Source: Deltaproteobacteria bacterium (GTDB taxonomy: Bacteria > SAR324 > NAC60-12). From it: a stretch of DNA of 33,765 nt. Position numbers and translations under genes: made by a program. The notes under the pieces were generated by a model. It was not told the origin of the DNA and made no database searches. It saw nothing but the letters and a program-made list of their open reading frames with translations. Shown one piece after another: positions 1,507-5,049 of this stretch. Every line of letters starts with the position of its first letter. Position 1 is the stretch's first letter. Where the stretch lies: positions 1 through 33,765 of the forward strand of contig PBTB01000096.1 of the NCBI GenBank assembly GCA_002726945.1, written 5' to 3'.

Positions 1507-4500
1507 ATGAAGCTTCGTGACGTGACGCTTGACGACAAGTACACCTTGGAATCCGGATACGCCTTCATGACGGGGATTCAGGCACTGGTGCGGCTGCCGA
1601 TGGTGCAGCACCGCCGTGACCTTGCCGCTGGGCGCAACACCGCCGGATTCGTCACAGGCTACCGGGGATCTCCGCTGGGGGTGCTGGACCAGCAGATGAA
1701 ACGTGCTCAAGGGCTGTTGCAGGAGCATCACGTCAAGTTCCACACCGCCGTCAACGAAGACCTCGCGGCCACCTCGCTCTGGGGGACACAGCAGGCGAAC
1801 CTACTCGGCGAGGGCAAGTACGATGGTGTGTTCGGCATGTGGTACGGCAAGGGCCCAGGAGTGGACCGCTCCGGGGATGCGTTGCGCCACGGGAATCTCG
1901 CGGGCACCATGCCGCTGGGGGGAGTGCTGGCCCTGCTCGGCGATGACCACACCTGCGAATCGTCCACGACCTGCCACCAGAGTGAGTTTGCCATGATGGA
2001 CGCGATGATCCCCGTTCTTAACCCCTCCGGCGTGCAGGAAATCCTCGACTGCGGATTGATCGGCTGGGCGCTTTCTCGCTATGCTGGAACCTGGGCTGCG
2101 CTCAAGTGCGTTCACGACACCGTGGAATCCACCGCTTCCGTTGATATTGGCTCCAGCCGCCTCAAGCTCATCACGCCCGAAGATTTTGTGCTTCCGGAAG
2201 GCGGGATGCAGATTCGCTGGCCCGACACCCCTCAGGAGCAGGAGCGTCGGCTGCACGAGTTCAAACTGCCCGCCGTCCTTGCCTTTGCCCGCCTCAATCG
2301 ACTCAACCGCACCATCTGGGACACCCCGGACGCGAGGTTGGGCCTGGTCTCCACGGGCAAGTCGTACATGGATGTGCGGCTCGCGCTTGAAGAGTTGGGC
2401 ATTGACGAAGGGCTCGCGCAACGGTTGGGGCTGCGCCTCTTCAAGGTTGCTATGTCGTGGCCGCTCGATCCGGAAGGACTCCGGGAGTTTGCACAAGGGC
2501 TGGACTGTATCATCGTCGTTGAGGAAAAGCGCGGACTCATCGAACCGCAGCTCAAGGATGCACTCTACGGAATGACAAACGCACCGGGAATCGTTGGCAA
2601 GCACGACGAATCCGGAGCGATCCTCTTTCCTTCCGCAATGGCACTGGACCCCAACCACATCGCAGTGGAACTCGGAAAGCGCGTCTTGGAGTATGCCAAC
2701 GACAAAAACCTGCAAAAGCGGGTGGCCTTCATCCAAGAGTTGATGACGCCCGACTTGGTTCCGGAACCCTTGGCGCGCTTGCCTTACTTCTGCGCGGGGT
2801 GTCCGCATAATTCCTCAACGCTTGTGCCGGAGGGCAGCCGGGCGCTGTCTGGCATCGGTTGTCACTACATGGCACAGTGGATGGACCGAAGCACCGCCGG
2901 CTACACGCAGATGGGCGGTGAAGGATCAAGCTGGGTGGGCGAGGCGCACTTCAGCAAACGCGAACACGTCTTCCAAAACGTGGGAGATGGCACCTATTAC
3001 CACTCCGGATTCCTTGCGCTGCGGGCTGCAGTCGCTGCAGAAGTCAACGTCACTTTCAAAATCCTCTTCAACGACGCGGTCGCCATGACCGGAGGCCAGC
3101 GTATGGACGGACCTCTGACGGTTCCTCGCATCACCCAACAGGTGATGGCCGAAGGGGCAAAGTGCGTGGCGGTGGTCACGGACGAACCGGAGAAGTACAA
3201 GAGTGAAACCGGATTTCCGGAGGGCACGGTGGTTTACCACCGCAAGCAGCTTGATGAAGTTTCACGCGAATTCCGCGAGATTCCGGGGACCTCCGTGATT
3301 GTGTATGACCAAACCTGCGCTGCCGAAAAACGCCGCCGCCGCAAGCGCGGAGAATTCCCGGACCCCAAGCGGCGTATCCTCATCAACGAGGCGGTTTGTG
3401 AAGGCTGCGGGGACTGCGGGGTGAAGTCGAACTGCGTGGCGGTGTTACCGCTTGAAACCGAGCTGGGACGCAAGCGCACCATTGACCAATCTGCCTGCAA
3501 CAAGGACTACTCCTGCGCCAACGGGCTTTGCCCGAGCTTTGTAAGCGTGTACGGCGGGAGACTGCGCAAATCCAAACCTGCCGTGACCGAAGCCGACACC
3601 TATGACGCTCTGCCCGTTCCGGAGCTCCCCGAAATTGACGGCACGTACAACATTGTCATCACGGGGGTAGGGGGCACGGGCGTGATTACCGTGGGTGCCT
3701 TGCTGGGCATGGCCGCGCACCTTGAAGGCAAGGGTATCGGCATCATTGACATGATTGGACTCGCCCAAAAAGGTGGAGCGGTCCTCAGCCATCTGCGGCT
3801 CGCCAATCATCCGGGAGAAATCCACGTTCCCCGGATTGCGTCTGGCGGAACCGATTTGATCATCGGCGGCGATTTGGTGGTTACAGGAGGGCACAAGGCG
3901 CTCTCCACCGTGCGCAAGGGGCACACGCGCCTCGTTGTCAACAGCTACGAGATGATCACCGGAGACTTCACGAAAAACCCCGACTGGCTCTTCCCCAACT
4001 TGGAATTGAAGCAGGGGATCGAACACGCAGCAGGAGCCGGGAACACCGAGTTTCTTGATGCCACAGGGCTGGCCACTGTCTTGATGGGCGATGCGATTGC
4101 GGGGAACCTCTTCCTGCTCGGATTCGCATTCCAGCGTGGTTTGGTTCCTCTGGGTGCGGAGTCACTGGAAAAAGCTATCGAGTTGAACGGGGTTGCGGTG
4201 GAGATGAACAAGACCGCATTCCTTTGGGGACGCCGCGCTGCCCACGATCTGGGGAAGGTCTGCAAGACTGCGTTTGCCGACACGGTGGTTCCAGACGAGC
4301 CAATCGCGCCCAAGACACTGGACGCACTCATCAACCACCGCAGTCAATTGCTGGTGGAGTACCAAAACCAAGCCTACGCTGAACGCTACCGTTCCCTTGT
4401 TGAGCGGGTGCGAGAAGCGGAATCGGTATTTGTCGCCAAGGAGCGCGGGCATGGCCCGCTCCTACAATCCGGAGGTTCCAGCGACCAGCGACCAGCGACC

Positions 4501-5049
4501 AGCGACCAGCCGCTCACGGAGGCGGTGGCGCAGTACTATTTCAAGCTGCTGGCGTACAAGGACGAGTACGAGGTCGCCCGGCTTTACACGAACGGGGATT
4601 TCCTCAAGCAGGTGGAGGCGACCTTTGAGGGCGATTACGCTCTCCAGTTGCACCTCGCGCCGCCCCTGTGGTCAAAGCGCAATCCGGGAACGGGCGAGCC
4701 GGTCAAGCAGACTTACGGTCCATGGATGCTCAAGACGATGGGTGTGCTCGCCAAATTCAAATTCCTGCGCGGCACTGCACTCGATCCTTTCGGACACACT
4801 GAGGAACGCCGTCTGGAGCGGCAACTCAGCAAGGATTACGAGGCGTTGCTCACAGAAATTCTGCACCGCCTCTCGTCTGGAAACCACATGATCGCCGTTG
4901 AACTTGCTTCGCTCCCCGAACACATCCGGGGCTACGATTTGGTCAAGCAGCGCAGTGTGGAGCAGGTGAAAGCCAAGCAGCAGGAGTTGCTGCAAAAACT
5001 CCGCAGGGGAGCCGCTCAGTCGCAAGCCGCCGAAACCGTGGAGGCGTGA
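1507..5049 (+). CDS. Indolepyruvate ferredoxin oxidoreductase, fused alpha/beta-type
   Basis: MKLRDVTLDDKYTLESGYAFMTGIQALVRLP..., GYRGSPLG, TPP-binding region, ferredoxin-like Cys cluster (CEGCGDCGVKSNC), gamma-type domain (GVGGTGVITVGALLGMAAH). Confidence 0.9.
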   Translation: MKLRDVTLDDKYTLESGYAFMTGIQALVRLPMVQHRRDLAAGRNTAGFVTGYRGSPLGVLDQQMKRAQGLLQEHHVKFHTAVNEDLAATSLWGTQQANLLGEGKYDGVFGMWYGKGPGVDRSGDALRHGNLAGTMPLGGVLALLGDDHTCESSTTCHQSEFAMMDAMIPVLNPSGVQEILDCGLIGWALSRYAGTWAALKCVHDTVESTASVDIGSSRLKLITPEDFVLPEGGMQIRWPDTPQEQERRLHEFKLPAVLAFARLNRLNRTIWDTPDARLGLVSTGKSYMDVRLALEELGIDEGLAQRLGLRLFKVAMSWPLDPEGLREFAQGLDCIIVVEEKRGLIEPQLKDALYGMTNAPGIVGKHDESGAILFPSAMALDPNHIAVELGKRVLEYANDKNLQKRVAFIQELMTPDLVPEPLARLPYFCAGCPHNSSTLVPEGSRALSGIGCHYMAQWMDRSTAGYTQMGGEGSSWVGEAHFSKREHVFQNVGDGTYYHSGFLALRAAVAAEVNVTFKILFNDAVAMTGGQRMDGPLTVPRITQQVMAEGAKCVAVVTDEPEKYKSETGFPEGTVVYHRKQLDEVSREFREIPGTSVIVYDQTCAAEKRRRRKRGEFPDPKRRILINEAVCEGCGDCGVKSNCVAVLPLETELGRKRTIDQSACNKDYSCANGLCPSFVSVYGGRLRKSKPAVTEADTYDALPVPELPEIDGTYNIVITGVGGTGVITVGALLGMAAHLEGKGIGIIDMIGLAQKGGAVLSHLRLANHPGEIHVPRIASGGTDLIIGGDLVVTGGHKALSTVRKGHTRLVVNSYEMITGDFTKNPDWLFPNLELKQGIEHAAGAGNTEFLDATGLATVLMGDAIAGNLFLLGFAFQRGLVPLGAESLEKAIELNGVAVEMNKTAFLWGRRAAHDLGKVCKTAFADTVVPDEPIAPKTLDALINHRSQLLVEYQNQAYAERYRSLVERVREAESVFVAKERGHGPLLQSGGSSDQRPATSDQPLTEAVAQYYFKLLAYKDEYEVARLYTNGDFLKQVEATFEGDYALQLHLAPPLWSKRNPGTGEPVKQTYGPWMLKTMGVLAKFKFLRGTALDPFGHTEERRLERQLSKDYEALLTEILHRLSSGNHMIAVELASLPEHIRGYDLVKQRSVEQVKAKQQELLQKLRRGAAQSQAAETVEA
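4439..4463. repeat. REP-like palindrome inside the IOR coding sequence
   Basis: aggagcgcgggc-atg-gcccgctcct; reverse complement AGGAGCGGGCCATGCCCGCGCTCCT resembles the widespread GTAGGAGCGGGC..GCCCGCG REP type. Confidence 0.65.
4480..4511 (+). repeat. Heptanucleotide tandem repeat, 4 perfect AGCGACC units plus partial
   Basis: AGCGACC x4 at 4480-4507 then AGCC, within the IOR CDS. Confidence 0.95.

Follow-up and report, generated by a model that had tools for sequence, protein, structure and literature searches.

The fused indolepyruvate:ferredoxin oxidoreductase (IOR) gene of a SAR324 deltaproteobacterium carries, within its coding sequence, a palindrome followed by a tandem array of a 7-nt unit. 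This locus raises the question of how such non-triplet repetitive DNA can reside in the gene: as a switch of the reading frame, or as DNA that has become protein sequence? We addressed it in the window, that is, the whole stretch of 33,765 nucleotides analysed, which is contig C56 of a 2.6 Mb draft assembly (156 contigs, 89% complete). The genus is represented by this genome only.

Repetitive DNA in frame within the IOR gene

The IOR gene (1507-5049, plus strand), delimited from its open reading frame, Pfam domains and homologues, encodes a product of 1180 residues with TPP_enzyme_C, POR and DUF6537 domains (Pfam PF02775, PF01558 and PF20169). The predicted arrangement of a palindrome, 16 nt and four AGCGACC units in frame can be read directly in it. 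The palindrome, found in the sequence and by DNA hairpin folding, occupies positions 4439-4463 and reads aggagcgcgggc-atg-gcccgctcct. It is imperfect, with an ATG loop and a 2-nt bulge, its left arm being two bases longer than its right (AGGAGC-GC-GGGC vs GCCC-GCTCCT). As DNA, the hairpin has a folding energy of -9.2 kcal/mol (z -2.3); as RNA, the region folds no better than shuffled sequences (z -0.85). After the 16-nt spacer (4464-4479), AGCGACC is repeated four times at 4480-4507. With partial units included, the array corresponds to 4.7 units of CCAGCGA at 4478-4510 on the plus strand, detected by TRF (100% match) and by a lag-7 scan, and it encodes SSDQRPATSDQP. The palindrome and array segment is translated as KERGHGPLLQSGGSSDQRPATSDQP, ahead of LTEAVAQYYFKLLAYKDEYEVARLY, and the reading frame stays open across both, to position 5049.

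Alignments locate this segment in an expanded linker between the motifs VREAE and LTEAVA (4423-4512, plus strand), which counts 30 residues here and about 9 in relatives of the family, that is, about 63 nt extra. We extended the comparison to 87 IOR homologues, which include members of the same family as well as many other bacteria. In the window, 54 residues separate the anchors YQNxxYAxxY and AYKDEYEVARL, vs 30-38 in the homologues, with a mode of 33 (53/87); the gain over the mode is 21 residues, or 63 nt. This bears out the proposed insertion into a linker of the IOR family. The original prediction had named a peptide shared by close homologues as evidence against itself; none of the 87 carries the inserted peptide. 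A scan of named genomes returned only distant IOR homologues, proteobacterial for the most part.

A search by sequence found no solved structure related to IOR. The last 282 residues of IOR were modelled with AlphaFold2 and 38 homologues, at a mean pLDDT of 88. In this model, the insert is a coil (pLDDT 60-69) between two confident helices (residues 57-82 and 104-117, model numbering). According to the model, the insertion site is thus a tolerant, flexible surface loop in an interhelical linker of DUF6537.

The window holds a second array, at 1454-1496 on the plus strand (TRF, lag-14 scan), which is T-free, consists of a 14-nt unit ACCAACCACCAGCA plus heptamers, is related to the IOR heptamers and stops 10 nt 5' of the IOR ATG. 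Similar arrays are also found 5' of ATGs elsewhere in the genome (C35:11292, C71:16624, C63:10589 and C145:4453), where they may have a role in the 5' UTR. At 192-235, past the 3' end of a minus-strand gene, lies a degenerate heptamer-like stretch in the opposite orientation (TTTTTGG, GGTTGCT, GGTTGTT).

A family of GTAG-type REP elements

Comparison with other copies in the genome identified a REP element, GTAGGAGCGGGCCATGCCCGCGC, at 4443-4465 on the minus strand of the window, the antisense strand of which is translated as ERGHGPLLQ. The IOR copy agrees with the genome-wide element at 22 of 23 positions, and its 21-nt core is exact. The REP pattern, which ends with CGA, occurs 14 times at three mismatches or fewer in the 2.6 Mb genome, and its reversed control does not occur. 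The element (GTAGGAGCGGGCCATGCCCGCGA) has a GTAG head in 12 copies and GCAG in the other two. The GTAG REP superfamily comprises short palindromes, 20-40 bp long, that bear GTAG at a terminus (PMC3733652), and by its sequence the REP part falls within this definition.

The copies, low in number (14), are dispersed: about half are intergenic and the rest lie in long open frames. Some stand directly ahead of a start codon, as at C72:2658 and C76:4649. Intragenic copies are found in IOR (C56), in a gene for a RecB-type nuclease-helicase (C40), in an ORF of 502 residues (C66) and in two frames of a Pfa-type synthase locus (C115). Depending on the gene, the 23-nt element is read as VGAGHARE, RGHGPLL or SRAWPAPT; both strands and different frames are used. 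Another copy, in an ORF of 507 residues (L196), is in an open frame but 5' of the part that aligns with homologues, and was kept as a candidate coding copy only. The C122 copy is one of a head-to-head pair: at C122:8394-8416 (L191), the REP is followed nearby by a second, inverted GTAG end, in a REPIN-like arrangement (GTAGGAGC...GCTCCTAC).

The same REP did not turn up in 30 further genomes of the family. A search for the RAYT transposase (NF047646) returned none in the 89%-complete assembly; RAYTs occur in several relatives. Matches to Y1 transposases were rejected as RAYTs, as they are IS200/IS605 TnpA-like fragments with no REP nearby.

Heptamer tracts across the genome

In a sample of 0.70 of the 2.6 Mb, whose contigs were partly picked for holding hits, so that densities are inflated, we counted 17 tandem tracts at lag 7 and 11 at lag 14, vs 0-3 at lags 4-6 and 8-13. 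A first-order Markov resample of the same 0.70 Mb gave no tract at any lag. Together with the 14 REP copies against none for the reversed control, this places the repeat segment beyond chance. In 0.40 Mb from 14 related genomes, the lag-7 scan found no tract. ACCAGNA-type heptamer arrays were observed in two genomes related at domain level only (L276 in G057 and L277 in G091), so the unit family extends beyond this lineage.

The heptamer unit varies by locus (ACCAGCG, ACCGGCA, AGACGGC, AAGCCAG, CAGCCGC, GCAGGCA, ACCCCGA and others). Thirteen of the 17 lag-7 tracts (12 of 16 with one overlapping pair merged) lie in genes, as called by a simple codon-usage caller that assigns 81% of the sample to coding sequence. 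Non-triplet heptamer repeats are kept in frame within genes, and we claim no enrichment of genic over intergenic tracts. They are associated with the REP family: a near-perfect heptamer tract is found within 100 nt of 4 of the 14 REPs, vs 0.5% of random sites (binomial p ~7e-7).

Tracts in other genes

The search of the genome for further insertions of REPs or heptamers, suggested by the original prediction, led to a tricorn protease homologue, RecB and a Pfa-type synthase, and to a PolA tract that brings no gain in length. In the tricorn homologue, a loop has 30 residues, vs 11-12 in 16 relatives (+18). Part of the gain, NRQPATDNQ, is encoded by heptamers, and the tricorn sequence of T. acidophilum also does without the extra residues. 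The 18 added residues (54 nt) are not a whole number of heptamers; the idea that insert length is a multiple of 7 residues, which the 21 of IOR fit, was rejected on this case.

In RecB, a REP with heptamers and a second degenerate stretch lie in a region that is variable among relatives. The RecB-type protein (L085:5674-9708, minus strand) shows two separate stretches derived from REP and heptamers, EAVGAGPVREPMTNHQPP and ETTDGRRQTAENAGAGQTHK. In the Pfa-type synthase, a KS-KS-FabA-FabA protein of 2392 residues, tracts are positioned at domain boundaries, directly 5' of the second ketosynthase and of each FabA-containing region. The PolA tract is close to where the matched part of the exonuclease-like domain begins. 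It was rejected as a third clean insertion, since there is no net gain in length relative to 6vde, which suggests that some tracts may arise within native linkers or replace them. Another tract (L209) probably lies 5' of the true trpB start.

Two contigs (L086:6212-13508 and L205:76-7372) are 99.6% identical over 7.3 kb and may be strain haplotypes or a duplication. The array that they share has an equal number of units in both. Their alignment contains two gaps only, one of which (1 nt) borders a 14-nt array located 5' of an ATG.

Coding strands poor in T

On the coding strand, each of the 12 distinct coding tracts contains 0-2 T in 25-40 nt, and 3.3% of random coding 32-mers are comparably T-poor. 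Every stop codon begins with T, and codons free of T encode A, D, E, G, H, K, N, P, Q, R, S and T only. It follows that a T-free array has no stop in any of the three frames, and that the peptide which it yields in each, devoid of C, F, I, L, M, V, W and Y, is hydrophilic. By inspection, the opposite strands of the tracts are also mostly stop-free, so that avoiding stops is not sufficient to account for the orientation. The base composition at these dozen loci points instead to peptide chemistry, since translation of the T-rich strand would give hydrophobic peptides. One heptamer array of the sample, at L090:4415-4450, is read in its T-rich orientation and gives a start that resembles a signal peptide, MKTRCWLLVAGCLLVAP.

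Possible origins of the IOR segment

The original prediction had also put forward a contingency locus, in which heptamer slippage would switch the IOR C-terminus on and off within the population. Its claims on the frame were confirmed: 7 is not divisible by 3, and with three or five units the product would end in a missense tail and count 1125 or 1042 residues, respectively, vs 1180, while one, four or seven units retain the true C-terminus. In addition, heptanucleotide phase variation is known in Haemophilus HMW adhesin genes (PMC8262952, PMC2651432). However, the array has few units (4.7), IOR is a metabolic enzyme and no surface structure, and similar tracts are present in unrelated housekeeping genes (PolA, RecB, tricorn, synthase), where switching hardly makes sense. 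The equal number of units in another array, on the two 99.6% identical contigs, also argues against a switch, and we consider this explanation highly improbable. A composite in which REP and heptamer tract move into genes as a single selfish unit, like Rickettsia palindromic elements, is also unlikely, if less so: heptamers do flank REPs within and between genes, and intragenic copies are found in C56, C40, C66 and C115, but the heptamer sequence is specific to each locus, many tracts occur without a REP and many REPs without a tract, and fixed boundaries are not seen.

Alternatively, the hairpin and array could act as DNA or RNA structure, in the mRNA or the chromosome (pausing, stability, protein binding), the peptide being incidental. 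Such roles have been hypothesised for REPs elsewhere (PMC3733652), and the DNA hairpin (z -2.3) and the second array 5' of the IOR ATG are in keeping with them. Nevertheless, the RNA fold does not exceed shuffles (z -0.85), and loop placement and strand choice track protein tolerance, which makes a structural role very unlikely. As for ordinary divergence or an assembly artefact, that is, a fast-evolving linker repetitive by chance or a misassembly, the draft state of the genome (156 contigs, interrupted locally by N runs) gives it some ground. Against it, the segment matches an element with 14 copies and none in the control, one read easily spans the 33-nt array, and the frame is preserved with conserved sequence on either side; its probability appears negligible.

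We therefore favour the reading that the IOR segment is probably a tolerated in-frame scar of a REP hairpin and a heptamer array, and not a switch. That IOR has gained a segment relative to its homologues is a direct observation, as are the REP family, the period-7 tracts across the genome and their association with REPs. Two kinds of repetitive DNA dispersed in this genome, the GTAG-tagged REP hairpin and the heptamer array, are combined in IOR, where about 63 nt have been added in frame to the interhelical linker of DUF6537 and would be translated as a flexible surface loop. The REP may have come by single-strand transposition, through a RAYT-type transposase that has since disappeared or is missing from the assembly. 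A copy made from an intergenic REP-heptamer stretch is the other possible source, and slippage may have lengthened the heptamer array. The almost T-free coding strand would act as a filter, giving no stops and a soluble linker whenever the total length is divisible by three. Overall, the linker insertion and the REP domesticated as protein sequence, both from the original interpretation, find support in the homologue alignments, the genome-wide copies and the predicted coil; the contingency locus does not find such support.

Discussion

Intragenic GTAG-tagged REPs have been described in O. terrae, in Xanthomonas recB and in others (Di Nocera et al. 2013, PMC3733652). The present family resembles them as a dispersed, GTAG-tagged short palindrome with some copies in frame, including in recB and other repair genes. 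It differs in its 14 copies, in a sequence restricted to this genome within the family, in the lack of a RAYT among our matches and in the adjoining heptamer arrays; the string "heptam" is absent from the text of that paper. Rickettsia palindromic elements, of about 150 bp and with a conserved peptide, are likewise inserted in frame in genes of unrelated proteins (PMC10969869). They share with the IOR insert, absent from 87 homologues, the creation of an extra protein segment from an in-frame palindromic insertion, whereas the element here has 23 nt rather than about 150 bp with a conserved peptide, and is read in varied frames and on both strands.

Dispersed heptamers are known in Nostoc and Xanthomonas (GGGNATC, PMC4692102) and in Beggiatoaceae (TAACTGA, PMC4679880), as well as among cyanobacterial STRRs. 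The tracts in this genome are similar in their 7-nt unit, in the few copies per array and in their many loci, some directly 5' of start codons; the lag-7 count (17, vs 0-3 for neighbouring periods) singles out the same period. In contrast to the near-constant and mainly intergenic known heptamers, the unit varies here, the coding strand lacks T and the sampled tracts are mostly genic. Simple-sequence contingency loci, such as the Haemophilus HMW heptanucleotides, have in common with IOR that a change in units would alter the frame; they differ from the few units, the housekeeping genes and the constancy seen here in the one array compared, on two contigs. A search of the open literature returned no paper on the combination of REPs and heptamers, which is not proof of absence.

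More generally, a linker-making process might be envisaged, although we regard it as rather doubtful at this stage. Slippage or repair in a 7-nt register would yield T-free tracts, often beside REPs, and selection would keep the one orientation that is stop-proof and free of hydrophobic residues in every frame, turning non-coding repeats into ready-made linkers in many proteins.

The IOR locus extends intragenic REPs to a new setting, in which they are coupled to strand-biased heptamer arrays. It also offers a testable rule for the entry of repetitive DNA into genes, namely that a coding strand without T spells neither stops nor hydrophobic residues, whatever the frame. Should this hold generally, it would be one route by which bacterial proteins acquire flexible linkers from non-coding repeats.
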